A stretch of 37,183 nt of DNA from Limisphaerales bacterium (GTDB taxonomy: Bacteria; Verrucomicrobiota; Verrucomicrobiia; Limisphaerales; JADLHS01). The notes under the pieces were generated by a model. It was not told where the DNA came from. It did not search any database and saw only the letters and a program-made list of their open reading frames with translations. Positions 5,227-27,880 of the stretch are shown here, piece after piece. The position numbers were made by a program, and so were the translations under genes. Location of the stretch: contig JADLHS010000146.1 in the NCBI GenBank assembly GCA_020848635.1, forward strand, positions 1 through 37,183, in the 5' to 3' direction. The number at the start of each line of letters is the position of its first letter. Position 1 is the first letter of the stretch.

Positions 5227-6552
5227 TCAGCCGTTGAGCGTCCAGCCGGGGCGATACTTGCGTGCCAGCAGGGCGTTGGCTTCCGGGTTGTCCGTCACGC
5301 GACCGACGGCAGCATCGTAGCTAATCTTCTGGCCCACGCGGTAAGCCACCAGACCCAGCAGCATTTGTTCGATCAGATTGCCACCGTATTCAAAATCGCA
5401 CGAAGTTTTCAAATTGCCTTTGCAGGCGTTGATCCATTCCTTTTGGAATTCGCCCAACGGGGGAATCAAGTCCGCGGTTGCGCGCGGCTTGTAATAAGTC
5501 ATGTCCGCTTTGTCGCGGGCGGGCAGCAGAACCCGGGTGTTGAAATCGGCAACGAGGGTGCCTTTGCTGCCTTCGAACATCGCGCCGTGCCCGATCTTTT
5601 TCAGATCCAAATACGGAGCCGGGGACTCCGGCATGTGGCCACCTTGATACCATGAGACCCGAATGGCGGGACGCCAGTCGTTGGCGGGATGCTCAAACTG
5701 CATGGTCAGCGCCACCGGGGTGACCTCGGGATTGAATGGGTCGCCTTTGCCGGCGGCGGAGGTGGGGAGGCGGGCGTCAATCGCGTTCCACGCCAGATCC
5801 ATGGTGTGGCTGCCCATATCGCCGACCTGGCCGCTGCCGAAATCCCAATACATGTTCCACTGCAGACAATTCATTCCCGGACCTCCGGAAAAATAACCCG
5901 GGTTGTAGGGATGATGGGGTGAAGGGCCAAGCCACAAATCGTAGTGAAGATAGTCCGGCGGCTCGCCTTGCGCGGGCAGGTAACCGGGCTTGGGCAGCTT
6001 GCGGTCACCCCAGGCGCACACCTCCTGCAGTTCGCCGATGGCACCGTCACGGATCAATTCCCGAACACGGTTGAAGTTTTCGATTGCGTGGCGCTGGGTG
6101 CCGACCTGGGTGGCCAGTTTGGTTTTGTTCTGGAGATAATTGGCGCGGACGACACGCGCTTCGGCCACCGAGTTGGCGAGCGGCTTTTCACAATAGACAT
6201 GCAGGCCGCGGTTCATCGCCCAGTTCGCCACGAAAGCGTGCGTGTGATCGGCCGTGCAGCAGACCACCGCCTGAACGTCCTTCTGGTCGAGGCATTTTCG
6301 CCAATCCACGTAGGTCTTTGCCCCCGGAAACCGCTTCGCGCCGGATGCGAGGTGATCTTCGTTGACGTCGCATAGCGCGACGACGTTCTCGCTGGAGATG
6401 GCGCTGAAGTGGGCTTCGCCGCGGCCCCATGTGCCGAGCAAGGCGATATTCAGCTTATTGCTGGGAGCGTCCGCGCCAAGAATTGAAGTGCGCGGCAGGA
6501 GCAGTCCGGCCCCGGTGGCGGTCAGCGATTGGAGGAATTGGCGTCGTTTCAT
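5227..6552 (-). CDS. Tat-exported Gfo/Idh/MocA family oxidoreductase (paired with TIM-barrel gene)
   Basis: This 441-residue enzyme has a short Tat signal (KRRQFLQSL at 2-10), a Rossmann glycine motif LLGTWGRG at 38-45, CDVN at 61-64 and the family EKP at 122-124. The C-terminal part has GDMGSHTMDLAWNAI with the conserved histidine. It would oxidise or reduce a sugar hydroxyl, probably with a tightly held NAD(P) because the periplasm lacks free cofactor. It lies 58 bases downstream of the TIM-barrel gene on the same strand, so the two are probably co-transcribed. Known pairs of this kind oxidise C3 of a glycoside and let the partner carry out an elimination or isomerisation. That specific role is an inference here. 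Confidence 0.88.
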   Translation of the reverse strand: MKRRQFLQSLTATGAGLLLPRTSILGADAPSNKLNIALLGTWGRGEAHFSAISSENVVALCDVNEDHLASGAKRFPGAKTYVDWRKCLDQKDVQAVVCCTADHTHAFVANWAMNRGLHVYCEKPLANSVAEARVVRANYLQNKTKLATQVGTQRHAIENFNRVRELIRDGAIGELQEVCAWGDRKLPKPGYLPAQGEPPDYLHYDLWLGPSPHHPYNPGYFSGGPGMNCLQWNMYWDFGSGQVGDMGSHTMDLAWNAIDARLPTSAAGKGDPFNPEVTPVALTMQFEHPANDWRPAIRVSWYQGGHMPESPAPYLDLKKIGHGAMFEGSKGTLVADFNTRVLLPARDKADMTYYKPRATADLIPPLGEFQKEWINACKGNLKTSCDFEYGGNLIEQMLLGLVAYRVGQKISYDAAVGRVTDNPEANALLARKYRPGWTLNG

Positions 6553-6610
6553 AAAGTTGGCGGGTTGACGGGAGGAGGCCGAGGGGGTTGGTTTGTTATT
6601 TGCCGGACGC

Positions 6611-7504
6611 TCAAAGCAGATTCTGATACGCCAGCCAGAGCGAACGGAAGTATTTCAGGACGCGCACCGGGTCCTGGCTCTCCGAAATCTCGGCGAGGCA
6701 ATAGCCGGTGAAGCCGGCCGCGTTCAGGCCGTTCAGCAGTTTGCGGAACGGGTATTCGTCCAGATAAAGGTCGCGCATATGGACGGTGAAAATCTTGTCT
6801 TTCAAGAGATCAAAATTGGAATCAAACCCGGCACCGTCCAGATCGGATTGATTGCAATTCCAGCAAGCGCCGACGTTTGGATGGTCGGTCACGTCCAGGA
6901 TGGTTTTGATGTTCGGCACCAGGGACGTTTCCTTGCCATGAACCTCCAGGCGGATCTGCACCCCGTGGCCCGCGGCGAATTCGCCAAGCTCGCGTAGCGA
7001 TCGGCCAATTTGGGCCAGCGTTTTTTCCTTCGGCACTTCGGGGGGCAATCCGTTGGGGCGGACTTTGACCCCGGGCGCACCGACGTCCTGCGCCAGGAGG
7101 ATGTATTCCTTCGTGGCCGTGATATCGGCGCGGAGCTTGGCCGGGTCCGGCGTGTGGAAATCAAACGCGCTGCCCAGGCCCATCAATTCGACGGGCGAAT
7201 CGTGGAATTGCTTCTTGACCGCTTGGCGTTGGGCCTTGCTCAACAAAACCTCGACCCCGTGCGCGTGGGTCGTGCGGAGTTCGACGCCCTGGAACTTTGT
7301 CTCCGTGCAATTCTTGATGATCGTGGGCACGTCCCAGTCTTTGGCGATGTTGTAGGTAACGAGGCCAAGTTTCATCCTCGGGGGCCCAAGGATGAAGCTC
7401 GCGGGCTGGGAAGTTTCAGCGCCGAACGTCGAGCGTCCGAGAAAACCAGCGGCGCCCACGGTCAAACCGGCGGTCTTCAGGAAATCCCGGCGATGTAATT
7501 TCAT
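6611..7504 (-). CDS. Tat-exported sugar phosphate isomerase/epimerase-like TIM-barrel protein
   Basis: This 297-residue protein belongs to the xylose isomerase-like TIM-barrel superfamily (AP_endonuc_2). It starts with a clear Tat signal (HRRDFLKTAGL at 4-14), which fixes the start at 7504 rather than the longer open frame to 7561. Likely metal ligands are E187 (RLEVHG), the region around 214 (CWNCNQSD), H242 (VHMRD) and E272 (CLAEISE). Despite the family name, exported members are not expected to see sugar phosphates. More likely substrates are oxidised (keto) sugars made by the neighbouring Gfo/Idh/MocA enzyme, which is encoded 58 bases downstream on the same strand. Family assignment is firm; the reaction is unknown. 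Confidence 0.85.
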   Translation of the reverse strand: MKLHRRDFLKTAGLTVGAAGFLGRSTFGAETSQPASFILGPPRMKLGLVTYNIAKDWDVPTIIKNCTETKFQGVELRTTHAHGVEVLLSKAQRQAVKKQFHDSPVELMGLGSAFDFHTPDPAKLRADITATKEYILLAQDVGAPGVKVRPNGLPPEVPKEKTLAQIGRSLRELGEFAAGHGVQIRLEVHGKETSLVPNIKTILDVTDHPNVGACWNCNQSDLDGAGFDSNFDLLKDKIFTVHMRDLYLDEYPFRKLLNGLNAAGFTGYCLAEISESQDPVRVLKYFRSLWLAYQNLL

Positions 7505-7670
7505 GTTTGGATTGAACGCCAAACGGGTCTCAGGGTCAACTCCGGGAACAGCGGTCGTCACGTTTCGTTCCTTAATAAACCAACCCCAAGACCACCGACT
7601 CCGAATCCGCAGATGATGGTGATTACACGGATTCCTGATCTGCGTGACTCTGTGAAATCTGCGGACAACC

Positions 7671-8110
7671 TCAGTACACCAACACTAGCACCGCCGCCTG
7701 CTCCGCTTCCTTCACCACGTCCTCAAACTTCTTCTCCTTGGTCGAAGCCTCTTTGAGTTTGTTCGCCACCTCCGGGACGGACTCCAGGAAGCTCAGAAGA
7801 TAACTACTCTTCACCGCGTAATTCACATTCTCCGGGAGCGTGCCGCTCAGGGCCAAGGCGGCCGAAGCATTCAGTTTTGCGGAGACCACGCCCACCACGT
7901 TCCCGCGCTCATCCACCAACGCCCCGCCCGAATTGCCCGGCTGCACCGGCACGCTGATCTGGAAATACCGCGCGTCATCCCCCGCCCCGAGTAGCAAGTT
8001 TTTCTATCAACCATCAACACTCACCTATCAACTTCCCCGAAACCCACCGTCACCACCGTGCCGCCCAACTTCACCCCGCGACTCGCCGCCACTTTGATGA
8101 AAACGACTCG
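7671..8110 (-). pseudogene. Remnant of a trypsin-like serine protease gene
   Basis: The downstream piece (open frame from 7997 to 7671) keeps the serine nucleophile motif [19 protein letters not shown] and the typical C-terminus of a secreted trypsin/DegP-like protease. Upstream, in a different frame, the bases before 8023 encode GVKLGGTVVTVGF, a segment that normally lies about 20 residues before the serine motif. Between them the expected residues are missing and replaced by a short sequence with three copies of CYATCAAC at 8004-8032, ending in a stop. The His and Asp of the triad and the signal peptide are absent, because the gene stops short of the XRE gene ending at 8133. The locus is therefore both truncated and frameshifted. 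Confidence 0.72.
8004..8032. repeat. Short CYATCAAC repeat inside the protease remnant
   Basis: CTATCAAC at 8004-8011, CCATCAAC at 8011-8018 and CTATCAAC at 8025-8032 form a small tandem-like array. It sits exactly where the protease coding sequence is interrupted, so it probably marks the insertion or deletion scar. Confidence 0.5.
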
Positions 8111-8132
8111 CCTTTGCGTAACTTGCGAACCG

Positions 8133-8375
8133 TCAAGACCTCTTTTGTTGTAGTTGTTCTGCCTCGGCAATCATTTGAGCCAACGACAAACCGAGTGCGT
8201 CTGCGATGGCTTTAGCGACTTTCAGGCTTGGGTTACGGAGCGAACGCTCAATCAGACCGACATGCGTTGGGTGAATATCAGCTTTTTCAGCCAAGAGTTC
8301 TTGGGAAATTCCACTGGCGCTACGGTGCTTTTTAAGCACCAGTGCAAAGGCCGTGGATATTTCCAAATTCCGCAT
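8133..8375 (-). CDS. Small XRE-family helix-turn-helix regulator
   Basis: An 80-residue protein made up almost wholly of a Cro/CI-type DNA-binding domain: FALVLKKHRSASGISQELLAEKADIHPTHVGLIERSLRNPSLKVAKAIADALGLSL, with helix 2-turn-helix 3 at about residues 24-45. It has no sensor domain. Standing alone, it resembles the control proteins of restriction-modification systems or small phage-type repressors, but no such system adjoins it. It is divergent from the LamG gene, with 114 bases between the starts. It could regulate itself and that gene. The broken protease follows 22 bases downstream. Confidence 0.85.
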   Translation of the reverse strand: MRNLEISTAFALVLKKHRSASGISQELLAEKADIHPTHVGLIERSLRNPSLKVAKAIADALGLSLAQMIAEAEQLQQKRS

Positions 8376-8422
8376 TCATGGCATTCTGCCGCAGCGCAAT
8401 TTCTCGAACACAGACAATAGTC

Positions 8423-8451
8423 TTGACGCGCAGCCAGCGAATCGTCATAAA
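8423..8451 (+). promoter_or_regulatory. Possible sigma70-type promoter for the LamG gene
   Basis: TTGACG at 8423-8428 and CATAAA at 8446-8451 are separated by 17 bases, matching the consensus boxes at five and four of six positions. The start codon of the LamG gene is 39 bases beyond. The divergent XRE gene starts at 8375, so the same interval could hold its operator. Confidence 0.35.
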
Positions 8452-8489
8452 CGGAAATCGGCGAAAACTCAGTGAACTCACACCGTCCT

Positions 8490-9452
8490 ATGAAAGACAT
8501 CAAACTCTCGTTCGTGATTGTTCTCCTCACCTTTGGGGGCTTCCTTCCCGCCCAAGCCCAAGACCCGTTCACGAACGGGTTGGTGGCGTATTACTCGTTC
8601 AATGGGAATGCGAATGACGCGAGCGGGAATGGCAACAATGGGACGGTAACGGCGGCGGCTTTGGCTGTGGACAGGTTGGGAAATCCTGATTCAGCTTATG
8701 CCTTTGATGGCGTATCGGCCTTCATCACAGTGCCGGATTCCCCGTCATTGAGAATAACGAACGACATCACCATGTCTTGCTGGGTAAACTTTGCTCAATC
8801 GAATGGGAACGTAAGGATCGTTGGTAAGGGCGCAGACTGCGGCCGCAGTTACGGCTTGTGGGGGCACCACGGGCAACCCGGCAATTTTTGGATGTTCCAA
8901 CAGTTCCCCCCTGAGGGTGGCTGCATAGGATGCCAAGAAAACACTGCCAGCGCTCTTCCTGTAGCTCAATTTGGGCGCTGGTACCACATGGTCGCTGTTC
9001 GATCCACCAATGGTTCCAAGCTCTACATTGATGCGCAGCTTACCGAAGACAACGACGGCCCAACCGTCAACTGCTCTCCGACAACCTACACCGGAAACGA
9101 GCCCCTGCTCATCGGGGCGCCTGGCTATTCTAACCCGCAACACAATTTGGCGTTGATGAATGGCCGCATTGATGACATCCGAATCTACAACCGCGCATTC
9201 TCGCCGACTGAGGTGTTGCAACTGCACCTCATCGAGTCAGGACTACGCTTAAACTTGATCAAGGCGGTCAAACCGGCTTTCTCCGGCCTGACCCTTGGTA
9301 CAAATTACCAGTTGCAGGTTTCAGGAAATTTGAGTGCTTGGACCAACGAGGGCTCGATATTCACAGCCACGAACACCAGCATGGTTTATCCGCACTATTG
9401 GGACGTGGACAACTGGGGCAGTCTGTTCTTCCGGTTGCAAGTCGCTCCCTAA
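8490..9452 (+). CDS. Secreted LamG-like (concanavalin fold) domain protein
   Basis: The 320-residue product starts with a signal peptide (MKDIKLSFVIVLLTFGGFLPAQAQ) and continues with a LamG/Laminin_G_3 domain at about 28-250. Hallmarks are LVAYYSFNGNANDASGNGNNG, ITMSCWVNF, RWYHMVAVRSTNGSKLYID and GRIDDIRIYNRAFSPTEV. The last 65 residues form a separate small beta domain typical of Verrucomicrobia surface proteins (GLTLGTNYQLQVSGNLSAWTN). The role is probably carbohydrate binding or adhesion; no catalytic residues are recognisable. The start at 8490 was chosen for the signal peptide. The stop codon at 9450-9452 lies on the first bases of the 92-base repeat that follows, so the repeat may have supplied the present C-terminus. 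Confidence 0.8.
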   Translation: MKDIKLSFVIVLLTFGGFLPAQAQDPFTNGLVAYYSFNGNANDASGNGNNGTVTAAALAVDRLGNPDSAYAFDGVSAFITVPDSPSLRITNDITMSCWVNFAQSNGNVRIVGKGADCGRSYGLWGHHGQPGNFWMFQQFPPEGGCIGCQENTASALPVAQFGRWYHMVAVRSTNGSKLYIDAQLTEDNDGPTVNCSPTTYTGNEPLLIGAPGYSNPQHNLALMNGRIDDIRIYNRAFSPTEVLQLHLIESGLRLNLIKAVKPAFSGLTLGTNYQLQVSGNLSAWTNEGSIFTATNTSMVYPHYWDVDNWGSLFFRLQVAP

Positions 9453-9542
9453 GTCGGCGCGACTGGTGGCGTTGCCAACCGCCAGCTCGGTCCGGGGGAT
9501 CATTGGCTGCGGAATAAAGTCCGGGGCGTTCCCGGAGCGCGG
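9451..9542 (+). repeat. 92-base direct repeat, copy 1
   Basis: It aligns without gaps to 10016-10107, with 81 of 92 positions identical. The core GTTGCCAACCGCCAGCTCGG is identical in both. The copy begins within the stop codon of the LamG gene and ends at GGAGCGCGG, which opens a small hairpin. Confidence 0.8.
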
Positions 9543-9660
9543 CGTTCACGCCGCTTCACCGTCCGCACACCAGAGGAGGCCACGAGAAATCCAGCGCGCG
9601 CCATCATGCGGGTGTTGAAGCGGGCTGAAGCCCGCGCTCTGTTCCGCGCGGCATATTTGA

Positions 9661-9885
9661 GAATCCCAACGGGATTCCAGCCCTCAGCCCAGCGGTTGCG
9701 AGGCACGAGCTACCCTGGGTAATCGTCCAAAAAAACATCTACCCCAACGACCCCAACGGGGTTGCAACGCCCGACGCTCCATCTGGTTGCTGAAACCCCG
9801 TTGGGGTTTTGATTTGATGATCGTCAACCCAGGGTAGCCCGCTCTGCGGCCAACCCTGGGCTACATGCTGAAATCCCTTTGGGAT
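9661..9885. repeat. Long imperfect inverted repeat
   Basis: The left arm (from 9661) and the reverse complement of the right arm (ending at 9885) share, in order, the blocks ATCCCAACGGGATT, AGCCCAG, GAGCTACCCTGGGT and ACCCCAACGGGGTT. Two oppositely oriented copies of one repeat unit would explain this. The style matches the widespread intergenic repeats of Planctomycetes and Verrucomicrobia. Confidence 0.65.
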
Positions 9886-10015
9886 GTTCCGCAGGGCGAG
9901 ATTCGATGATGTCGCTCCGACGGAGCTTCGTTGGTTTGGTGACTGCGAAACTATAAATATGCCAGCCCTAACGGGCTTTCCCTGCGCATCCGCCTTCCTC
10001 CGATTTCCGGGAGCC

Positions 10016-10107
10016 AAGTCAGCGTGACCGTTGGCGTTGCCAACCGCCAGCTCGGTCAGGGGAATCATTGTCAGCGGAATAAAGCCCGAGGCGTTCCAGG
10101 AGCGCGG
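10016..10107 (+). repeat. 92-base direct repeat, copy 2
   Basis: This is the partner of 9451-9542, lying 565 bases downstream in the same orientation. It runs into a perfect small hairpin (GCGGACGG, then CCGTCCGC) at 10104-10122. Confidence 0.8.
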
Positions 10108-10179
10108 ACGGTCCCCGTCCGCAGCGCGTGAACGAGCAGAGAAGCTTGCGGATAAATCAACGCGTTCTGGTTTGGCGCA

Positions 10180-10209
10180 GCGCTGCGGGCGAGAGACCGC
10201 CCGCGCTCC
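10180..10209. repeat. REP-like palindromic repeat, copy B
   Basis: It reads GCGCTGCGGGCG, a short centre, then CCCGCGCTCC, matching copy A at 2362-2391 on both arms. Confidence 0.6.
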
Positions 10210-10293
10210 GGCTGCGTCAGCAAACCGCGCGGAGCGTCTGGAGTGCGCGTTCACCGCCGCTTTCCATTGTGTTGGAGAACTGCACTCGACCTC

Positions 10294-10440
10294 CCTCACC
10301 CCGGCCCTCCCCCCACGGAGAGGGTGAATCGTTCGCCGCATCGGTGAACTGCCACACGCTGGATTGGCCGGACGGTCAAGCGAACTACCGAAAACGTGCA
10401 AGGTCCCATCGTCTCCCCGGGGGGAGAAGGCGGGGTGAGA
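10294..10440. repeat. Inverted pair of CTCACCCCG-type units
   Basis: CTCACCCCGGCCCTCC at 10294 and the reverse complement of the sequence at 10411-10440 (CTCACCCCGCCTTCTCC) are close copies in opposite orientation. Each is followed by its own short hairpin-forming run of C and G. Confidence 0.5.
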
Positions 10441-10479
10441 ATTCCCCGAACAATTCGCCCATTGAACCCCCGAACTGTT

Positions 10480-10546
10480 GCAGCCGACGTCAGGAGGCTC
10501 TGACTTCCTGCTTCCGAAACAGAATGAGCCTCCTCACGTCGGCTGC
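10480..10546. repeat. 21-base inverted repeat
   Basis: The left arm is 10480-10500 and the right arm 10526-10546. The arms are complementary except at one position and begin GCAGCCGACGT. The 25-base loop lies between them. It is a compact hairpin unit that could be an extragenic repeat or a minimal mobile element. Confidence 0.65.
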
Positions 10547-10703
10547 TACGAAGCTCAGGATGGGGCGTGCGTCCCAACCATTCGCACTTTGATTCCTTTT
10601 GGGCCGGCGGCCTGCTTGGAATCACGCAAAGAATTATTCCTTTCGCACCGTGCGGCGAAGCGCAGCCCGCCATTAGCATGCCGGACGCGCCGCACGACGG
10701 AGT

Positions 10704-12050
10704 TCACGCCAACTGCGGCACTTCAAAGCCCTTGCGATACTCGCGCTTTACATACTTGTTGGCTTCGCGGTCCTTGAAGCGTTCCGCTTTGGGCTCGAAT
10801 TCCAGCGAGCGCCCCAGGCGAAAGGCGATGTTGCCGAGTTGGCAATGCACGCAGGAGTAATGCGCATCGAGCGTGGATACCGGCATGTCCGCCGGGTTGC
10901 GTGAGCGGATGGCTTTGAAGAAGCGGTCCCATTTATTGCCCTTGTCCAGCGCGGGCGCGGTGTCGGGGACGGGGATGGCTGCGCGGTCGCTCGGCTTGCC
11001 GTCCTTCTTGCCTTCCTGGTAGGAGAAAAATCCCCGACCCACCACATAGAAGCCTTTGGTGCCGAAAAAGCTGTTGCCGCAATTGCTGCCGTCGAATTCC
11101 TCGTACGAACCGAGGTTGCGTACTTGAAAGGTCAGGATGGTGCCGTCGGCATACGTGAAGGTGGTGGCCTGCGTGTTCGGCGTCTGGCCGTCGTCGTTCA
11201 AACCAAAGCGTCCACCCGCGCTGTACACGTTCACCGGCAGACCCCGGTTGTGGCCCCAACAGGCGATATCCATCTGATGCACGCCTTGGTTGCCAATCTC
11301 GCCGTTGCCGTATTCCCAGAAATAGTGCCAGTCGTAGTGGACGTAGAGGCCCGGCTTTTTGCGGTCAATGTTGATCATGAATTCGTGGTCGCGGGCCGGC
11401 CCCTGCCAGAGCGGCCAGTCGAGATTCGCCGGCACCGGACCGGGTTTGCCGTGGCCGATGGGCCCGCGGTTGCCGTTCTTGTAAACGTAGCCGCGGGATT
11501 CCACGATCTCCCCAATGAAACCGTCGTGAATCAGTTTGATGTCGCGCCGGAGCGTGGCGCTGGAACGGCTTTGCGTGCCGTGCTGCACGATGCGTTGGTA
11601 TTTCCCGGCCGCCGCGGTGAGCTGCCGGCCCTCATAGATGCTGTGGGAAAGCGGCTTCTCCACGTAAACGTCCTTGCCGGCCTGAGCCGCCCAGATGGCC
11701 GCGAGTGTGTGCCAATGATTTGGCGTGGCGATGGTGACGGCGTCTATTTCCTTGTCTTGCAAGGCTTCACGGATGTCCCGGTAGAGCTTGGGCGCTTTGC
11801 CTTGCTTGGCTTGAACCATTTCCGCACCACGCGCGAGCACTTCGGAATCCACGTCGCACAAGGCGGTGTATTCGGCCTCGTCCTTCAGGCCGAGAATGTC
11901 GTTGATGTGACCGCGGCCCTGGCCGTTGAAGCCGATGGTGCAAACGCGGATGCGGTTGTTGGCGCCAAAAACTTTGCCGGTGGCCATCATGCCGCCGACG
12001 ATCACTGCCGCCGTGGTTTTGCCGATAAATTGTCTGCGCGTGAGTTCCAT
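10704..12050 (-). CDS. Tat-exported Gfo/Idh/MocA family oxidoreductase (pectin locus)
   Basis: The 448-residue product has a Tat signal (TRRQFIGKT at 4-12), a Rossmann glycine motif (IGFNGQGRGHI at 39-49), CDVD at 65-68 and EKP at 131-133. The C-terminal half contains GNGEIGNQGVHQMDIACWG with the conserved histidine. It is a third paralogue in this window. Its ATG lies two bases beyond the stop of the PL1-like lyase gene, so the two are very probably translated from one message. That link suggests a substrate that is a sugar or oligosaccharide released by the lyase, but nothing in the sequence fixes it. Confidence 0.88.
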   Translation of the reverse strand: MELTRRQFIGKTTAAVIVGGMMATGKVFGANNRIRVCTIGFNGQGRGHINDILGLKDEAEYTALCDVDSEVLARGAEMVQAKQGKAPKLYRDIREALQDKEIDAVTIATPNHWHTLAAIWAAQAGKDVYVEKPLSHSIYEGRQLTAAAGKYQRIVQHGTQSRSSATLRRDIKLIHDGFIGEIVESRGYVYKNGNRGPIGHGKPGPVPANLDWPLWQGPARDHEFMINIDRKKPGLYVHYDWHYFWEYGNGEIGNQGVHQMDIACWGHNRGLPVNVYSAGGRFGLNDDGQTPNTQATTFTYADGTILTFQVRNLGSYEEFDGSNCGNSFFGTKGFYVVGRGFFSYQEGKKDGKPSDRAAIPVPDTAPALDKGNKWDRFFKAIRSRNPADMPVSTLDAHYSCVHCQLGNIAFRLGRSLEFEPKAERFKDREANKYVKREYRKGFEVPQLA

Positions 12051-12052
12051 AA

Positions 12053-13732
12053 TCAGTTTGGGGTTGGGGTTAATGAGTTCAGATATGCTTCGAGATTGGT
12101 GTAACCATTGCCATTGGTATCCGACGCGCCGTCGGCGGAATTGTTCAGGTCCAGCCCGTGTTTTCGCTCCCAGTCGTCCGGCATGCCGTCGTGGTCCGTA
12201 TCGGGCGGCGCCGGTTGCGAGCGCAACTCCGGCCAGCCACCCACGGCCGTCTGGGAGTCAATAATACCCTTGCCGCCCCCGCCATACGTTTCGCCGAACT
12301 TGGCAGTGCCGGTGCGAACCTCTTCAATGATGCGTTGGTCAACCGAATCACGAAACAACGAACAGCCCACCTGGGCAAGGACTAATTCATAGGCCGTTTC
12401 CGCCGGTTGGGTGGTCACCGGCGCCACGACCAAGGGGTGCGCGACCCGCAGCGTCGCTTCGGTGGCTTCCCCGTCCGGCGCGAAGTCAATTCCGCCCTGC
12501 CAGTTGTCGGCCGAGATGGCCGAGGCGCCGCAGACGAAATTACCCGCCGCATACATTTTGCCACGCGGATCCTTTTGCAGAAAAATGCGCCGGCGAACCT
12601 TTTCGGACGTGGCCGGGCCGGATTTATAGTAGTTGTTGATCCAGTTCCGCGGCCAGAGTTCACCCCCGTAGGCGCTGTTGAAGCCCCAATTGTAAACCAC
12701 GTTGTTGCGGTAATCCATCAAGCCGGACTCGGCATTCCCGGAAGCGCGCGGGTTGCGACTGCTGTGATGGGCCAGCAGATTATGATGCCACGAGCCGCCC
12801 GGCCCGCCCCACAGTCCGCCGTAGCCATGAGCCCCCTTCTTGTGCAGAGATTTGGTCAAACTCTCGCTGACCAGACACCACTGCACCGTGAGGTTCGTGC
12901 CCTTGTTGATCGAGAACGTCTCGTCCACGCCCCAGCTGGCGGTGCAATGATCAACAATGAGGTGATGGCCCTCGCCGCCAAAGCCGTCCTGCTCGACGCC
13001 TGATTCGTCCCCCGGCCGGAACCGCAGATAGCGGAGGATCAAATCGTGGGTATTGAAGCTGACCTGATAATTCTTGAGGCAAATACCAGCGCCAGGAGCG
13101 GTCTGGCCTGCGACGGTGAGAAAGGGTTCGGTGATCTTGAGCCTGGATTCGAGTGGAATCGTACCTGAGACCCGAAACACCACTGTCCGCGGCCCCTTGG
13201 CCAAGCACGCCGCGCGGAAGCTCCCCGGCCCATGGTCGTCGAGGTTGGTGACCTCAATAACTCTGCCGCCCCGACCGCCGAGCGTGTATTTGCCAAAACC
13301 TTCCGCGCCGGGAAAGGCGGGCGCGCGATCCGGGCGGAGGTTGGAAAGGGTAACCGTGCCCGCCTGCGGGTCGTATTTCAGATCATAGCGCCAGCCTTGC
13401 GGGAGAATTACATGATCGAACTTTCCCTCGATTGCCTCGACACCGGGAGCGCACAATTGGAAGAGCGAGTTCTCATGCGGTTCGATGGGCCCAGTGAACT
13501 GCACTTCTACGGTTCCGCCCAGCCTCCAGTGGCCGGACTGGAGCGGATTCAAAACCTCGTGGTCGTTGACCTCGAAAACGGTCCGCCCGGCGCACGTCCG
13601 CCACGCTGGCGGGGCCGGGACAACGGCCCCTGCAGCGTCCGCCCCTAGCGCAGCGAAGCCTGGACCGATGCCGAGGGAGAGCAGGATGAAACTCACCCAA
13701 GTGCGCCGGCAACACCACCCAGCCGGAAGCAT
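12053..13732 (-). CDS. Secreted pectate lyase-like protein (PL1 type) with C-terminal Ca-binding segment
   Basis: This 559-residue protein, counted from the ATG at 13732, opens with a signal peptide (TWVSFILLSLGIGPGFAALGA). The right-handed beta-helix domain starts with the hallmark FPGAEGFGKYTLGGRGG and includes GPGSFRAAC, VAGQTAPGAGICLKNY and IVDHCTASWGVDETFS. It would cut pectin-type chains by beta-elimination. The last 45 residues (DTDHDGMPDDWERKHGLD, then DTNGNGYTNLEAYLN) are a calcium-binding, thrombospondin-3/dockerin-like tail common in secreted Verrucomicrobia enzymes. The ATG at 13792 is an alternative start with a longer basic leader, and neither has a strong ribosome site. An extra N-terminal domain of about 100 residues before the helix is unassigned. 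Confidence 0.82.
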   Translation of the reverse strand: MLPAGWCCRRTWVSFILLSLGIGPGFAALGADAAGAVVPAPPAWRTCAGRTVFEVNDHEVLNPLQSGHWRLGGTVEVQFTGPIEPHENSLFQLCAPGVEAIEGKFDHVILPQGWRYDLKYDPQAGTVTLSNLRPDRAPAFPGAEGFGKYTLGGRGGRVIEVTNLDDHGPGSFRAACLAKGPRTVVFRVSGTIPLESRLKITEPFLTVAGQTAPGAGICLKNYQVSFNTHDLILRYLRFRPGDESGVEQDGFGGEGHHLIVDHCTASWGVDETFSINKGTNLTVQWCLVSESLTKSLHKKGAHGYGGLWGGPGGSWHHNLLAHHSSRNPRASGNAESGLMDYRNNVVYNWGFNSAYGGELWPRNWINNYYKSGPATSEKVRRRIFLQKDPRGKMYAAGNFVCGASAISADNWQGGIDFAPDGEATEATLRVAHPLVVAPVTTQPAETAYELVLAQVGCSLFRDSVDQRIIEEVRTGTAKFGETYGGGGKGIIDSQTAVGGWPELRSQPAPPDTDHDGMPDDWERKHGLDLNNSADGASDTNGNGYTNLEAYLNSLTPTPN

Positions 13733-13914
13733 CTTCTTTGCTCGCCGGCAATTCAGACTGCCGCGGCGTGGGTTTGCTCGATCCGCTTTCATCTGTTTGC
13801 CAGTCTGCCAGAAACGCCTTGAGATCGTCAAAGAAAACGGCAGCCCATGGGCGGATCCGAGTGCATGGAATTTTGAAATTGCCGACGCTGGGGCGGCATG
13901 GCATCAATCGTTCC

Positions 13915-15348
13915 TTGAACAGCCAACTGCTCCGCCTGCGTCCCCAGAATCGAACCACTCGCGCCCGTCACCGCTTCGGAAGTGGGATTGCGGCCCGCTT
14001 GGGGGCGGTCGCGATAGTTGCATTGGCGGGGAGCGCAATGGCCAAGGAACTCCCAGCTTTTCCGGGCGCAGAGGGCTTTGGCCGTTTTGCCACCGGCGGA
14101 CGCGGGGGAGATGTTTACATCGTCACCCACCTGAACGACGCCGGTCCAGGTTCGCTGCGCGAGGGAATCCGTTCCGCCACCGGCCCGCGCACCATTGTGT
14201 TTGGGACTTCCGGCACGATTGAACTGAAGAGCCGGCTTACGCTGGACAAATCCGCCATTACCATCGCGGGCCAGACCGCGCCCGGCGACGGCATCACGCT
14301 CAAGGATTTCACCTTCCAGATCAAAACCGCCACGAACGTAATCGTGCGCTACCTGCGCGTCCGCCTGGGGGACGAGCACAAAGAGAAAGGCGCCAAAGGG
14401 GGCGACGACGCGCTGAACACCGAGGACATTGACCGGGTGATCCTCGACCATTGTTCGTTGAGCTGGGCGATTGACGGCACGCACGATCTGCGGCGCGGCG
14501 GCAACTTCACCTTGCAATGGTGCATTCTCAGCGAGGCCCTCAATCACAGCTTGCACAATAAAACCGATCACGCCATGTGCGCTTCGTATCGCGATCTATC
14601 GGGCAACATTTCCCTACACCACAACCTGTTTTCCACCTGTCGCGATCGTCACCCTACCCTGGGCAGCGCGCAAGCTCCGCCCCGGCACCTCGTGGATTTT
14701 CGCAACAACCTCATCTACAACTGGAGCGCGGGCGGCACGGCCAACTTCGCCGACCATTTCATCAACTGCGTCAACAACGTGTTCCGTCCGGGCCCCATGA
14801 CCGATCCGGCAAAACTCCCGATCGCGATGAAAGGCAGCCTGCCCGATCTGGCCCGCGGCTACATGAGCGGGAACGTGTTCGAAGCGCGCGCGGATCTCAC
14901 CCGCGACAACTACGCCGCGCTCGACTTCAACCGCTGGCTGCATTCCGGTACCGGCTACAAGTATCGCGGCACGGTGGCCGACTGGAAGACCGCCGCATCC
15001 CCCGTTCCGGCGGACGACACGCCGCCGACGCAGCCGGCCCGCGAGGCCGCAGAACTCGTGCTGGCTCAAGCTGGCGCATCGTTGCGCCGCGATGCCGTGG
15101 ATGAACGGGTCACGGACAACGTTCGGCACCGCCGGGGCAAGTTGCTTGATTCACAAGCGGAAGTGGGCGGTTGGCCCAAGCTGCGCAGCGCGCCAGCCCC
15201 GGCGGACCAGGATCGAGATGGCATGCCCGACGCCTGGGAACAGGCCCGGGGACTGGACCCAACAAATCCAGCCGACCGCAACGCCGATCGGGACGGCGAC
15301 CGCTACACCAATCTCGAAGAATACCTCAACCATCTATGCGCGCCGTAA
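13915..15348 (+). CDS. Secreted pectate lyase-like protein (PL1 type), divergent paralogue
   Basis: The product is 477 residues if the TTG at 13915 is used. The family match starts with ELPAFPGAEGFGRFATGGRGG and continues with GPGSLREGIRS, IAGQTAPGDGITLKDF, LDHCSLSWAIDGTHD and LHHNLFSTCRDRHP. Its C-terminus (DQDRDGMPDAWEQARGLD, then DRDGDRYTNLEEYLNHL) is the same calcium-binding tail as in the neighbour on the other strand, so the two are paralogues arranged head to head. No ATG precedes the hydrophobic leader (GAVAIVALAGSAMA) in frame. The TTG at 13915 is the best candidate, and a TTG at 13738 would overlap the divergent gene. The stop overlaps the next start by 13 bases. Confidence 0.82.
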   Translation: MNSQLLRLRPQNRTTRARHRFGSGIAARLGAVAIVALAGSAMAKELPAFPGAEGFGRFATGGRGGDVYIVTHLNDAGPGSLREGIRSATGPRTIVFGTSGTIELKSRLTLDKSAITIAGQTAPGDGITLKDFTFQIKTATNVIVRYLRVRLGDEHKEKGAKGGDDALNTEDIDRVILDHCSLSWAIDGTHDLRRGGNFTLQWCILSEALNHSLHNKTDHAMCASYRDLSGNISLHHNLFSTCRDRHPTLGSAQAPPRHLVDFRNNLIYNWSAGGTANFADHFINCVNNVFRPGPMTDPAKLPIAMKGSLPDLARGYMSGNVFEARADLTRDNYAALDFNRWLHSGTGYKYRGTVADWKTAASPVPADDTPPTQPAREAAELVLAQAGASLRRDAVDERVTDNVRHRRGKLLDSQAEVGGWPKLRSAPAPADQDRDGMPDAWEQARGLDPTNPADRNADRDGDRYTNLEEYLNHLCAP

Positions 15349-16160
15349 CGCCGGTTGTTTTTCCACGGTCGCGTGGGGCCGAGGTTGGCCGCCGCGGGCA
15401 GGGCAAATCCGTCCGATGGCTTGGTCTTGTCCTGTTCGCCATCACCGGGTTGGCCGCCGCCCGCGCAGAGGCGCCGCCGCTCCGGATCTGCCTCCTTTCC
15501 GCTTCCGCGGAGTATGAGTCGGACAAATCCCTGGCCGGCTTCCAAGCTTACCTCGAAGCCCGCTACGCCGTGACCTGTCAGCGTGCCTTCGGCAAAGACA
15601 AAGCGGTGGGCCTGCCGGGCCTGGAGGCGCTCGATACGGCGGACTTGATGAGTGTCTTCACCCGCCGGATCACGTTGCCGCCGGCGCAACTCGAACGCGT
15701 ACAGAAATACATCGCCCGCGGCCGGCCGATCATCGGCCTGCGCACCGCCAGTCATGCCTTCCAGAATTACCTGGAATTTGATCGTGCGGTTTTGGGCGGT
15801 GGCTACGTCGGACACCACACCAATGCCGAGGCCGGGGTGCAACTGGCCGCCGGTCGGAGCCAACATCCCGTGCTCGCGGGGGTTTCGCCCTTCCCGACGC
15901 GCAAGCTCTACAAAAACCCAACCCTGGCGGATGATGTCGTCGTGCTGCTGGACGGCGTTACCGCGAGCGACCGCGAACCCGTGGCCTGGGTCCGCGAGCA
16001 ACACGGCGGTCGCGTCTTCTACACCTCGCTCGGCACCCCCGAGGATTTCAGCCAGGAAAGTTTCCGGCGGCTGTTGGTGAACGCGATCTTCTGGACCACC
16101 CAGCGGGACGAAGCGGCCCTCCGGCAGCCCCTGAGCGGCGGCAACCGGCCAAGCCAGTGA
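15336..16160 (+). CDS. ThuA-like domain protein (trehalose utilisation family fold)
   Basis: The 274-residue product has a basic leader and hydrophobic segment (WLGLVLFAITGLAAARA), then a ThuA-like, class I glutamine amidotransferase-type fold: LRICLLSASAEYESDKSLAGF, ARGRPIIGLRTASHAF, GGGYVGHHTN, VAWVREQHGGRVFYTSLGTPEDF and RRLLVNAIFWTT. The family is common in Verrucomicrobia and Planctomycetes beside sugar oxidoreductases, and its biochemistry is poorly known. The ATG at 15336 lies within the end of the lyase gene (13-base overlap), which implies translational coupling. The longer open frame upstream is only the shadow of the lyase gene. A role in handling lyase products is inferred from that coupling. 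Confidence 0.8.
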   Translation: MRAVTPVVFPRSRGAEVGRRGQGKSVRWLGLVLFAITGLAAARAEAPPLRICLLSASAEYESDKSLAGFQAYLEARYAVTCQRAFGKDKAVGLPGLEALDTADLMSVFTRRITLPPAQLERVQKYIARGRPIIGLRTASHAFQNYLEFDRAVLGGGYVGHHTNAEAGVQLAAGRSQHPVLAGVSPFPTRKLYKNPTLADDVVVLLDGVTASDREPVAWVREQHGGRVFYTSLGTPEDFSQESFRRLLVNAIFWTTQRDEAALRQPLSGGNRPSQ

Positions 16161-16242
16161 CGGGATGGAGATCCCCAGTCACTAAAATATTACGCCGCGA
16201 GGCACCTCGGGCAGCGGCGCTTTTCCAGGCTTCGCGCCGGCG

Positions 16243-17406
16243 TCACTGCTTCGGCTGGAACCGGGCGTCCAGCCACGCGAACGCCTCGTCCTGCATCGGG
16301 GCGTTAAATTCGTGCGGCGCGTCGTAGAGCCGCGTCTCCAGTTGGGCGCCCGCCTTTTGTGATTCCCACACACGGCGCATCTTGGCGAACGCTTCCTCGA
16401 TGCTGGGCAAGGGGAACAGCCCGTCGCGGCGGCCGCCGATGAACAGCATCGGTTTCGGGCACGCGATGCTGGCGACATCCGGGTAATCGAGGAAATTGGC
16501 CAATCCCGGATGGATCATCGTGAAGGCGGATTGACCCGTGGTCTGATTGTTGCCCGGCACAAGCAAGCCTTTCCCCGTGGCCATCCAGCACACGGACACA
16601 CCCGCGGCGATGCGATCGGACAAGGCCGCGAGCTGCCAGGTGCGAAAGCCGCCGACCGAAAGGCCCATCGCGCCGACGCGTTTCGGGTCCACCTCCGGCT
16701 GCGTGGCCAGAAATTCCGCCGCGCGCAAATCTTCGTGGGCGATCAGTCCGGCGAAACTCGTGCCGAATTGGAGAAGATTGGCCGCGAGCTTTTCCTGACC
16801 GTCAAAGCCGCCCCCGCCGCGATCGGACCAGTTAAGCATGTCCGTGGCAAAACAGACATACCCGCGCTTCGCCAGTTCGTCGCCGATGAACCGCCGGCCG
16901 TAACAATTCTCCACCCACTTGCCAGCGGACTCGAGCTTCGCCGAATTGTCGGCCCACGGCTGGATCACCTTTTCCTTGCCGATATCGAACTTCGCGCCGT
17001 GATCATGCAACAGCAGCACGGCGGGATGCGGCCCGGCGGATTTCGGAACGAGCAGGTACGCCAGCACCCGGCTGTCTCGCGTGACATTGAACACCACTTT
17101 ACGGGCAACGTAACTGCCGCGGTCCTGTTCCGCGACGACGACGGGAGCGAACGGCGCCACGGGCGGCGGCGGCAGCAGGCATTTCATCACCTGGGCGCGG
17201 GCCTGTTGGCGCCAGGAATCAAAATCACTGTGATCATGGTGGAGCCAGGAAAGGGGATACTCCATTCGCTCCGCCAGGCGCGCATGGAAAGCCGGCAGGT
17301 TTTTGACGACCCCGGGCGATTGGAAGGTTTCCGGCGCGGCAAAGGCTGGCAACGCGGAGGCGAGCAGGACAACGACTCGAAGCGCGAAGCTTTTGATGGT
17401 CTTCAT
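16243..17406 (-). CDS. Secreted alpha/beta-hydrolase (acetyl xylan esterase/dienelactone hydrolase-like)
   Basis: This 387-residue protein has a signal peptide (ALRVVVLLASALPAFA) and an alpha/beta-hydrolase fold of the Abhydrolase_7 type. The nucleophile elbow is GLSVGG with S250, the acid is D328 (GGRRDGLF) and the histidine is H365 (DAPHEFN). The oxyanion region is LLLHDHGAKF at 132-141. It probably removes acyl or methyl esters from polysaccharide chains, but family members include carboxylesterases with other substrates. Its start overlaps the stop of the upstream RIFT-barrel gene as ATGA, so the two are co-translated. It converges with the ThuA-like gene with 82 bases between the stops. 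Confidence 0.82.
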   Translation of the reverse strand: MKTIKSFALRVVVLLASALPAFAAPETFQSPGVVKNLPAFHARLAERMEYPLSWLHHDHSDFDSWRQQARAQVMKCLLPPPPVAPFAPVVVAEQDRGSYVARKVVFNVTRDSRVLAYLLVPKSAGPHPAVLLLHDHGAKFDIGKEKVIQPWADNSAKLESAGKWVENCYGRRFIGDELAKRGYVCFATDMLNWSDRGGGGFDGQEKLAANLLQFGTSFAGLIAHEDLRAAEFLATQPEVDPKRVGAMGLSVGGFRTWQLAALSDRIAAGVSVCWMATGKGLLVPGNNQTTGQSAFTMIHPGLANFLDYPDVASIACPKPMLFIGGRRDGLFPLPSIEEAFAKMRRVWESQKAGAQLETRLYDAPHEFNAPMQDEAFAWLDARFQPKQ

Positions 17407-24905: not shown

Positions 24906-25997
24906 CTATTTTTTCAAATCCTCCGCAATGGTCGCGAACTGCTCCATTGCTGCTTCCAAGTCAGCCGTGATGTCAGCCGCGATAATTTCGGGAGCGGGCA
25001 GGTTCGCGGATTCTTCCAGCGCGTCGTCTTTCAGCCAGAAGATATCTAGGTTCACTTTGTCGCGCTTGGTCAGCTCGTCATAGGTGAAGCACTTGAAGCG
25101 CTCCGTCTCCACGCGGTTGATCCGATTCCCGGTAGGGCGGCGTTGCTGCGCCGCCTCCTTATTTGGGACGCGCGGCAACGCGTCCCTACCGACATTGCCA
25201 AAATAACAATTCACAAAATCATCCAGATCACTCCGCTTGAGCGTGTTTTCCTTGAGCGTGAAATGCAGGTTCGTGCGCAGGTCGTAAATCCAGAGCTGCT
25301 GCGTCCACGGCTTTTCCTGCGCGGGCTTGCGGTCAAAGAACAGGACATTAGCCTTCACGCCTTGCGCGTAGAAGATGCCGGTGGGCAGGCGCAGCAACGT
25401 ATGCACGTCCGCCTGCTTGAGCAGTTCGCGCCGGATTGTTTCGCCCGCGCCGCCTTCAAACAGCACGTTGTCCGGCAACACCACCGCCGCGCGACCGTGC
25501 TGCTTGAGAATGGTGAGAATGTGCTGGAGGAAATTGAGCTGCTTGTTGCTCGTGCTCGCCCAGAAATCGTCGCGGTTGGACAACATTAACTCGCAAATTA
25601 ACTCGACATGCTTCATGCGGCTCATCTGTCCCGCACTGAGGACGCCAGCTTCGGCAAAATACCATTCGTAACGACGAGCGAGCCAATCCGCCTCCTGCAA
25701 AAACGGGCTGTTGTAATACTTCGCCCGGCGTTTTTCTTGAGGGGTCAAGGCCTTGCCGGTGGAGTTGATTCGGACAACCCCTTCGACTAGCCGGATTTGA
25801 AACCGCGCCGTGCCGCCAGTTTCTAACAGCATGACGCTTCCGATTGGAAACGACCGCGCAATGCTGACGAGCAGGGAGCGGATATGAGCATCGTCCCAGA
25901 CCCAGCCGCGTTGAAAGTCGGGGAGCTGGATTTTGCCTTCCACTATCTGCTCCAGCAGTTTGCTCAGGGCCGTCTTGGTTGAATCGAAAGTTGCCAT
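24906..25997 (-). CDS. Chimeric DUF262-HsdM protein (internally deleted, fused in frame)
   Basis: The 363-residue frame from the ATG at 25997 joins three pieces. Residues 1-74 are the start of a DUF262 (GmrSD-type) protein (KLLEQIVEGKIQLPDFQRGWVWDD). Residues 75-140 are a later DUF262 segment (VRINSTGKALTPQEKRRAKYYNS, here shortened by deletion of the part holding the DGQQR motif). From about residue 142 it is the C-terminal half of a type I restriction-modification HsdM subunit (SNKQLNFLQHILTILKQHGRAAVVLPDN, then PTGIFYAQGVKANVLFFDRKPA). The methyltransferase NPPF motif is absent, so it cannot methylate. The reading frame survives both joints and a 20-codon palindromic insertion (25131-25190). 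No intact type I system is present in the window. Confidence 0.65.
   Translation of the reverse strand: MATFDSTKTALSKLLEQIVEGKIQLPDFQRGWVWDDAHIRSLLVSIARSFPIGSVMLLETGGTARFQIRLVEGVVRINSTGKALTPQEKRRAKYYNSPFLQEADWLARRYEWYFAEAGVLSAGQMSRMKHVELICELMLSNRDDFWASTSNKQLNFLQHILTILKQHGRAAVVLPDNVLFEGGAGETIRRELLKQADVHTLLRLPTGIFYAQGVKANVLFFDRKPAQEKPWTQQLWIYDLRTNLHFTLKENTLKRSDLDDFVNCYFGNVGRDALPRVPNKEAAQQRRPTGNRINRVETERFKCFTYDELTKRDKVNLDIFWLKDDALEESANLPAPEIIAADITADLEAAMEQFATIAEDLKK
25131..25190. repeat. 60-base palindromic element inserted in frame in coding sequence
   Basis: The element begins GGTAGGGC and ends CCCTACC on the plus strand, with terminal inverted GGTAGGG. Internally it forms two hairpins: one around GGCGGCGTT and CGCCGCC, the other around GGGACGCG and CGCGTCCC. 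It is exactly 60 bases, or 20 codons, so the HsdM reading frame stays open through it. In homologous HsdM proteins the two flanks (YFGN and NRVETERF) normally lie close together. No other copy exists in the window. Confidence 0.75.
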
Positions 25998-26002
25998 ACA
26001 AT

Positions 26003-26167
26003 TTAGAATTCTCTCGTGAATGCATTTTGGAGGATGGACTGGCGGAGGAGCAGTTTGTTCTCGGTCTGCAGGGTCGTGAGCGACTGTTGAAAATCGGCTC
26101 GCAGTTGTGTGATGAGGGCGCGCGCCTCGTCCAACGAGGTGATTTGATTGGCAAGCGTGGCGTCCAT
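26003..26167 (-). pseudogene. IS66-family TnpC N-terminal fragment
   Basis: A 54-residue frame whose first 44 residues (MDATLANQITSLDEARALI, then QLRADFQQSLTTLQTENKLLLRQ) look like the coiled-coil start of an IS66 TnpC transposase. The frame then diverges (SILQNAFTREF) and stops six bases before the start of the DUF262-HsdM chimera. The zinc finger and DDE domain are absent. Together with tnpB and tnpA pieces at 27933-28441 it marks the remains of one IS66 element split by the IS110 insertion. Confidence 0.6.
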
Positions 26168-26365
26168 CGTGAGTTGCAAAATCAGACGCGCCCGCCGCGA
26201 AAAAGTTCAAACTTTTTGGAACAATTTTGCGGTGAGAATTTTACGCCGCGCGCTCATACCACGGACGCAATTTTGCGCCCCGTAAATCGACGCCGTCGGT
26301 GAGCATCGCCAGCGCTTGGGGCGTCAAACTCAGCTCACCTCTGAGGTGATCCGACAAGCGGATTT
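26168..26365. other. Non-coding stretch between TnpC fragment and IS110 transposase
   Basis: This contains the left copy of a 16-base inverted repeat (26193-26208) described under the IS110 element, a hairpin around AAAAAGTTCAAACTTTTT (26201-26218), and then the non-coding 3' end of the IS110 element. No gene seen. Confidence 0.5.
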
Positions 26366-27667
26366 TTAATTTTTCTTCGCCGGATTTTTCCAGGGACTCT
26401 TGCCCAGTTCGACGCGGTCGAATAGGGCCACTAACGGACTGCCCGCTTTGCGCAACGCGGCTTCATATTTGGTTTCCTCGTAGGGTTGGCGATCCAGCCA
26501 GCAGCGCCAGATGATCCGCTGCCATTTGAAGGCCAGCGCCCGGACGGCGGTGTGGTGGTGACTGCCCTTGCTGCGTTGTTGCAGGTAATACGCCCCGGCC
26601 CACCGACTCCACAACACGCTCTCCTTGGCATATGCATGAAAGCTTTGCCGGTGAAACTTCGGACAGCAGTAGCGCCGATGGATGTAACAACTCCCTCCGC
26701 TGCGCTTGGTCACCGGGGCCACGCCCGTGTAGCGCTGGAGTTGCGCGGCGCTTTCGGCGAAACGTTCGCGGTTGGCGCCCAGGCTGGCCAAGAGGCGCGG
26801 GCCCAGCACCGGCCCGGCCCCCGGCAGACTGGCGAAGATCCTCCGGTCGGGATGGGCCGCATAGGCCGCCGCGATTTGTTGGTCAAACGCCGTCACGGTC
26901 CGCTGCACCAGTTGGAGCTGGCGGCAGAGCAACTGCACCCGCAGCACAAAGCTCCCGATCACCGCCGGCTCGTCGGTGACCGCCACCGCCTTGGCCACCA
27001 GCGCCAGCCGCTCGGTCTGCAAGCGGGTACTCCGGCTGCCGTGGAGATGATAAAACGTCTTGAGCCGCTCAGGCTTGGCCTTCTGCACGGTCTGCAAGCT
27101 GGGCCATTTCAACAGGAACGCCGTGGCCAACGGCCGCCACAGATCCTCGCCACACAGCAGCAGGGCCTGCGGATAATACTGTTTTAACAGGGCGATGAGC
27201 CGGTTGCTCAGGCCCGTGCGTTCATCGACCACGGCGCGGCGATGCACGACCAACTGCTGGACCGCTCGCGTGGCGCTGTCCTCCGGCGCCCAGACCGGCA
27301 GCTTGGCGTGGTGGGTCAGGAGCAGGTCGGCCAGATACTCGGCGTCCTTGGTGTCATCCTTGGCGCGGCTGGTCACGAAGGCTTCGCGATACTTCTGCAA
27401 CGTGATCGGGTTGATGGGATGAAGCGTGATCCAGGCGTAGGTTTCCAGGAACGGGATCAGGTGGACGGCGGGTTGTTCCAGACAGAGCCCGACGCGCGCG
27501 CCGGGCGATTTCTGGCGGAGTTCCAGGAGCCATTCCCAAAGCGCCCCGGGGGCGGTGGCAATCACGGCCGTGCGGCGTTGGCCCGTGTGCGTGTCAATCA
27601 GGCAGAGGTCGGCCTTCTGATCGGAGCGGTCCAGGCCGATGACCAGGTCATAGGGATGTGCAGTCAT
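26366..27667 (-). CDS. IS110-family transposase (DEDD)
   Basis: The 433-residue recombinase has an N-terminal RuvC-like DEDD domain: D13 (VIGLDRSDQK), the glutamate of GLCLEQPAV, and the two aspartates in SRAKDDTKDAEYLADLL. The C-terminal Transposase_20 domain is marked by FASLPGAGPVLGPRLLASLG and YTGVAPVTKRSGGS, which carries the likely serine nucleophile. The start at 27667 has a strong ribosome site (GGAAAGGA, 8 bases upstream); the longer frame to 27715 has none. The length is complete, so it may be active. Known IS110 recombinases are guided by a non-coding bridge or seek RNA encoded in the element ends. Confidence 0.9.
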   Translation of the reverse strand: MTAHPYDLVIGLDRSDQKADLCLIDTHTGQRRTAVIATAPGALWEWLLELRQKSPGARVGLCLEQPAVHLIPFLETYAWITLHPINPITLQKYREAFVTSRAKDDTKDAEYLADLLLTHHAKLPVWAPEDSATRAVQQLVVHRRAVVDERTGLSNRLIALLKQYYPQALLLCGEDLWRPLATAFLLKWPSLQTVQKAKPERLKTFYHLHGSRSTRLQTERLALVAKAVAVTDEPAVIGSFVLRVQLLCRQLQLVQRTVTAFDQQIAAAYAAHPDRRIFASLPGAGPVLGPRLLASLGANRERFAESAAQLQRYTGVAPVTKRSGGSCYIHRRYCCPKFHRQSFHAYAKESVLWSRWAGAYYLQQRSKGSHHHTAVRALAFKWQRIIWRCWLDRQPYEETKYEAALRKAGSPLVALFDRVELGKSPWKNPAKKN

Positions 27668-27880
27668 GTTTTTTGTCCTTTCCGGTTGCCCGCAGACTTG
27701 ACCCAGCGACGCCAATATAGAAGAGTCGTTCCGGGTTACAGCGACGCCCTCTGGAGTAGTCGTTAGAGGGTCAAGTCCCGCCCGGCGGGTCGGTCCATAA
27801 ACTCAAAGTCGTTACGACGACTGGTCGTTAGCAGACCTGACCCGCCGAGGCGGGCAAACCAAGACACGGATAGTGAAAAC
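27668..27880 (-). ncRNA. Candidate bridge RNA region upstream of IS110 transposase
   Basis: The non-coding bases directly before the transposase start form, on the transcribed strand, several strong hairpins: CCCGCC with GGCGGG (27841-27854), CCCGCC G GGCGGG (27780-27792), and CCCTCT with AGAGGG enclosing a 12-base loop AACGACTACTCC (27747-27770). The motif AACGAC recurs four times (27725, 27760, 27810 and 27826 areas), as expected for guide loops matching targets. IS110-group elements carry bridge RNA at this place. The exact RNA ends are unknown. Confidence 0.5.

Follow-up and report, generated by a model that had tools for sequence, protein, structure and literature searches.

The window, that is, the whole 37,183-nt stretch of Limisphaerales DNA that was analysed, carries an open reading frame (ORF) on its minus strand into which a palindromic repeat is inserted. 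Pfam matches in this ORF were limited to a GmrSD_N fragment (residues 83-130) and to N6_Mtase (residues 217-339), the latter covering profile positions 155-275 of 311 only, and the motifs DPACGTGG and NPPF were missing. Because its domains are partial, its catalytic motifs are missing and an IS110 transposase adjoins it, the host ORF is, as read from its sequence, a chimeric remnant in which GmrSD/DUF262 pieces and the C-terminal third of hsdM share one open frame, rather than a working HsdM. The original prediction of an HsdM-derived frame thus stands for the C-terminal part that bears the insert, but the ORF is not an intact hsdM and is fused to a GmrSD_N (DUF262) piece. The IS110-family transposase gene (26366-27715, minus strand) lies directly beside the hsdM remnant and may have had a part in the rearrangement. 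The features of the locus are collected in Table 1.

Table 1. Coordinates in the window of the inserted element, its parts and its host ORF.
Feature	Position	Strand	Description	Basis
Whole element	25131..25190	.	Two GTAG-tagged REP units arranged head to head (REPIN-like dimer), 60 nt	22-nt inverted arms, fold z -4.7, pattern in 0/100 shuffles
REP unit 1	25132..25155	+	GTAG + 8-bp stem + 4-nt loop, GTAGGGCGGCGTTGCTGCGCCGCC	Unit scan
Spacer	25156..25165	.	Separates both REP units, TCCTTATTTG, 10 bp	Sequence read
REP unit 2	25166..25189	-	GTAGGGACGCGTTGCCGCGCGTCC; ~15 related genome copies at <=3 mismatches	Unit scan and genome search
Host ORF	24906..26210	-	434 aa; part of GmrSD_N (DUF262) joined to the C-terminal region of HsdM, no catalytic motifs	Pfam, motif check
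HsdM-derived portion of host ORF	24909..25589	-	Insert in its CY...ETERF loop	Alignment and genome searches

The element runs from GGTAGGG to CCCTACC and is exactly 60 nt long (25131-25190), as originally predicted, and the two internal hairpins were located as perfect stems (25136-25142/25149-25155 and 25165-25172/25179-25186). Both stems are nested in a larger inverted repeat whose 22-nt arms are 86% complementary. The element strand folds at -22.3 kcal/mol (z -4.7, matched by none of 200 shuffles), and its minimum-energy fold is one long hairpin, as expected of a REPIN doublet. The pattern GTAGGG-N30-60-CCCTAC occurred once in the window and in none of 100 window shuffles. A scan of the 37-kb window for GTAG beside a perfect GC-rich stem-loop returned exactly two units, 25132-25155 (plus strand) and 25166-25189 (minus strand), while the tag-scrambled control returned none. 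With stems of 8 bp and loops of 4 nt, both units fall within the definition of GTAG REPs (GTAG or GTRG beside a 5-13 bp stem-loop), and their tags face outward, which makes them a head-to-head dimer, the arrangement most often met among GTAG-REP dimers. Searches for a known RNA family gave only Rfam matches far below threshold (E 0.33-0.78), and this assignment was rejected. We consider it highly probable that the element is a head-to-head GTAG-REP dimer, a miniature mobile sequence of REPIN-like, non-autonomous type, and that it became inserted in an hsdM gene. It is called REPIN-like because a cognate RAYT flanked by the same REPs was not found and the assembly is fragmented. For the window copy neither a target duplication nor a precisely matching empty site could be established; this counts against the explanation, as do the damage to the window hsdM and the upstream stop in the order-mate that shares the insert. 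As had been foreseen, the element holds no stop and the minus-strand frame (24906-26210) runs open through all of it; with a chimeric remnant as host, however, the open frame of this copy alone is no proof of selection.

The family was surveyed in the source genome by pattern and similarity searches. With three mismatches allowed at most, approximately 15 copies related to the right-hand unit were counted in the 5.85-Mb assembly (control, 1). This is a modest number for a REP family; dimers are present in many genomes of the order. Further whole dimers with the same build and different stem sequences were found at C69, C71, C78, C262, and C563, and slightly degenerate dimers at C498 and C394. 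The tags point outward in the window dimer and in those at C69, C262, C563, and C78, and one tail-to-tail pair was found, at C2. Six of the eight dimers examined were in frame within genes: besides the window hsdM remnant, the hosts were ligA (an NAD-dependent DNA ligase, insert within the zinc-finger segment), genes for an NAD-dependent epimerase and a DUF3516 protein (both inserts within the domain), a DUF218 gene (insert ahead of the domain), and an ORF classed as methylase-like by visual inspection alone. The peptides encoded by in-gene dimers resemble each other (GRDALPRVPANRQVGPT, GRDALPRVPADRPVGPT, GRADLPVGSEALQCVPT, GRAALPRGQADRQVSPT, and GRAELPLGQDAQQRVPT). Five of the six in-gene dimers were 51 nt and one was 60 nt long; the two judged to lie outside genes measured 50 and 52 nt. 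The idea of a palindrome that can add about 20 residues to proteins is supported by this dispersed family, its other genome copies and the preponderance of in-frame dimers among those examined.

The place of the insert in HsdM was compared across homologues. Most of the homologues fetched lack the segment: nine residues link CY to ETERF in them, as in CY-NPKNRHxRK-ETERF, in agreement with the claim that the flanks are close in ordinary HsdM proteins. The window HsdM has 31 residues between CY and ETERF against the commonest nine; the alignment confirmed an excess, of 22 residues rather than the 20 proposed. The loop was empty in approximately 70 homologues and filled by other REP families in eight groups. 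Filled loops were seen in the window and its order-mate G582, which share the same REP, and in L032, L033/L198, L034, L040/L047, L052, L133, L196, and L201. Where their DNA was analysed, the filled loops contained outward GTAG- or GTGG-tagged dimers of several families, the inserts of L034 and L201 being composite and less clear as REP dimers. The L201 loop (hsdM of G648) combines several repeat-like pieces, including an HPGPLPGRG-type peptide. L034, L033/L198, and L196 are full-length with both catalytic motifs, and to judge by these motifs they are plausibly working HsdM proteins; L047 is full length with DPSCGTGG replacing DPACGTGG. In G582 the insert residues are all identical to those of the window; the 22 codons compared differ by four synonymous changes, one of which affects the CTAC tag, and by none that replaces an amino acid. 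Ahead of the insert, the G582 hsdM contains an in-frame TAG, for which decay and assembly error are both possible. More distant HsdM only were found on viral contigs, and the loop was empty in the one read in detail.

Full-length alignment revealed two more insert-bearing loops of HsdM: one close to the N-terminus, in L036, and one that follows LLLHGIG, in L033 and L047 and, with an insert of unassigned kind, in L038. In a structure model of L034 the insert (residues 411-445) was unstructured, with pLDDT mostly below 50 in a model that is itself only fair (mean 68.5). Among solved HsdM structures the length at the insert place is naturally variable, long in EcoKI HsdM and short in 2okc. This variation in length is in line with the CY...ETERF loop being permissive.

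The ligase of the source genome has its REP in the zinc-finger loop (KDKIKTGRAELPLGQDAQQRVPTEDEEVAW), which is short (as in KEKMSGGDADEVAW) in about a dozen order-mates. The G655 LigA carries the same REP as the ligase of the source genome, and other inserts occupy the same zinc-finger loop in G296, G652, G673, and G648 (L372, L373, L375, and L379). The LigA loop has a pattern similar to that of HsdM and apparently also takes up repeats of different families from host to host. The L372 and L373 inserts look palindromic yet are not GTAG dimers. In the G477 LigA (L388) the zinc-finger segment is enlarged by an apparent second cysteine-pair module rather than by a REP.

The relation of REPs to reading frame was analysed in 69 dimers, drawn from the first matches listed for each of 13 genomes of the order, the source genome included. 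Codon usage served to assign a coding frame to each flank of 150 nt, independently of the other flank, with a pooled codon model trained on the same loci. Of the dimers with both flanks coding in the same direction, 20 kept a common frame across the element and one did not (p ~4e-9 against the one third in frame expected without selection); these genomes are fragmented, and a few of the pattern matches may not be true REPs. At a stricter threshold there were 16 in-frame and no out-of-frame cases (p ~2e-8). An earlier version with 240-nt flanks, which missed known genes including that of the window, gave 13 in-frame cases and one out of frame. The share of REPs lying in genes was roughly half that of random control positions (21/65 in the 13 genomes vs. 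approximately 60%). Dimer lengths ranged freely from 48 to 66 nt, and the length was a multiple of three in 14 of the 20 in-frame copies vs. 15 of the 49 others (Fisher p = 0.0035). Since in-gene copies are more often multiples of three than the others, phase is a survival filter and not a property of the element: insertion seems indifferent to frame, and survival dependent on it. The suggestion that the palindrome is selected for length and phase is therefore upheld only for surviving insertions, on which selection acts; the element itself varies freely in length.

Different REP families occupy one HsdM site, whether the origin of the filled state was single or repeated. We tentatively propose three loops as recurrent REP docking sites in Verrucomicrobiota: in HsdM the CY...ETERF loop and the one that follows LLLHGIG, and in LigA the zinc-finger loop. 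Unrelated families would independently insert or swap at the same codons there and steadily supply new loop sequence to DNA-acting proteins. It is also quite conceivable that a single ancestral event filled the HsdM loop and that the filled gene spread by descent and transfer, other families later replacing or overgrowing its REP with no repeated landing. Such a single filling would agree with the CYFG and RV flanks common to most filled genes and with the insert that the window and G582 both bear, and the AU test did not reject a single filled clade (p = 0.138). The best HsdM DNA tree, however, requires seven changes of the filled state (bootstrap 6-8) and places the filled rows L052 and L040/L047 away from the main group; moreover, the inserts come from unrelated families, and LigA independently shows the same pattern. 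As the CYFG and RV flanks recur in many filled loops, these loops are likely to descend in part from a common source, their REP having been exchanged later.

Usefulness of the inserts, for example as regulatory or binding segments of HsdM and LigA held by positive selection, appears improbable to us. Inserts do recur in DNA-acting proteins, here and in a 2013 survey (PMC3733652), and the insert shared by the window and G582 has changed at synonymous positions only, but insert sequences differ widely among hosts, the modelled loops look unstructured, hsdM is damaged in both carriers of the window insert, and REPs are depleted in genes overall. It is very unlikely that the element is a Rickettsia-type palindromic element (RPE) or belongs to another MITE family designed to stay in frame: the outward behaviour is alike, palindromic and in frame in genes (PMC3733652), yet the GTAG tags and the two-unit build differ, and outside genes the lengths of the family are not confined to multiples of three. 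RPE membership, the original prediction having drawn a parallel with these elements, was rejected on the tag (GTAG at both ends) and the build, RPE-4/6 being of the CGTC super-family and the present element a GTAG head-to-head dimer. A chance palindrome or an ordinary variable segment of HsdM is hardly credible even though HsdM loop length naturally varies here, given the shuffling and folding results and the absence of the segment from most homologues, and is refuted by the approximately 15 genomic copies of one unit.

For a mobile GTAG-REP dimer, the following course of events may be envisaged. As no Y1_Tnp gene was seen beside the GTAGGG family in the source genome and ten relatives, we infer the mobilising enzyme: a REP-associated tyrosine transposase (TnpA_REP/RAYT), a Y1 HUH enzyme, would spread the units in trans. 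Y1_Tnp genes were present in all 11 genomes searched, and those whose flanks were read had no GTAGGG units there. Units would land irrespective of frame, selection would remove the frame-breaking or structurally harmful insertions, and the survivors would be frame-keeping insertions in exposed flexible loops. The element should be readily translated, with the TAG of the tag in frame in one of three phases and stems without stops, so that it would add some 17-20 tolerated residues. A loop once enlarged may accept further or different REPs, which would account for the presence of several families in one and the same loop of HsdM. The Y1_Tnp genes of G703, G446, and G652 (L348, L356, and L369) are flanked by other GTAG families (GTAGCCCACGGCG... 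and GTAGCGCAGGCGTCC...), and these genes and their flanking REPs are likely RAYT-REP pairs.

Intragenic GTAG-REP dimers encoding 20-30 residues were described in 2013 by Di Nocera et al. (PMC3733652), so that the kind is already known. That survey found most intragenic GTAG REPs in the verrucomicrobium Opitutus terrae, DNA ligase being among the targets, suggested that flexible-loop insertions are possibly neutral, and reported different REPs at about the same recB site in two Xanthomonas species. The present units resemble its GTAG super-family in their GTAG tag, 6-9 bp perfect stem, short loop and outward dimers coding within genes, the comparison with its 24 families being one of anatomy. 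The super-family is typically extragenic; here 21 of 65 REPs in 13 genomes lay in genes, yet six of eight did so among those examined in the source genome. The main text of that study contains neither hsdM nor frame statistics across genomes. What is new in the present analysis is the hsdM case and the frame statistics, together with the observation that different families repeatedly fill the same loops.

In Pseudomonas fluorescens, REPINs (Bertels and Rainey 2011, PMC3116915) are likewise inverted REP doublets that can fold into one long hairpin, and for them a RAYT acting in trans was proposed. They are mainly extragenic and lie beside RAYT genes, whereas many of the present copies are in genes and none was found beside a RAYT. 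The 23-nt units of SMAG/REPtron Sm in Stenotrophomonas maltophilia (PMC8266576), with GTAG, an 8-bp perfect stem and a short loop, have nearly the same anatomy. There the tag and stem of GTAG REPs are the recognition determinants of TnpA_REP, and the cognate enzyme cleaves the REP in vitro (PMC8266576); no such enzyme was found beside the units described here. Rickettsia palindromic elements also place palindromic repeats in frame in many genes, but RPE-4/6, intragenic in R. conorii, are CGTC-tagged (PMC3733652) and RPE-1 is longer, unlike the GTAG-tagged, two-unit element of the window. By the frame test, GTAG-REP dimers add to coding sequence to an extent that can be seen inside a single order, and what keeps the frame is selection acting on the survivors, not the design of the element. 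Filled loops are natural insertion maps of permissive protein loops, and the filling of the same loop is a test bed for a possible target preference in REP dissemination.

The inserts of filled HsdM loops were also used in searches of six host genomes, which proved to contain further copies. With a query of five concatenated inserts, so that the counts mix families, there were more than 50 matches in each of G390 and G393, 14-19 in G389, G391, and G392, and three in G388. In G389 (L172, C65:7001-27000) the GTGGAAGCGGCG-family REPs among the matches listed all lay on one contig, within approximately 11 kb around the hsd genes (5709-16733), clustered as if a restriction island had carried its own REPs from another host. 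In G392 (L173, C22:366001-386000) two REP families, of the GTAGAAGCGGCG and GTAGGGCGGGC types, were packed into approximately 5 kb around one hsd gene (6149-11499).
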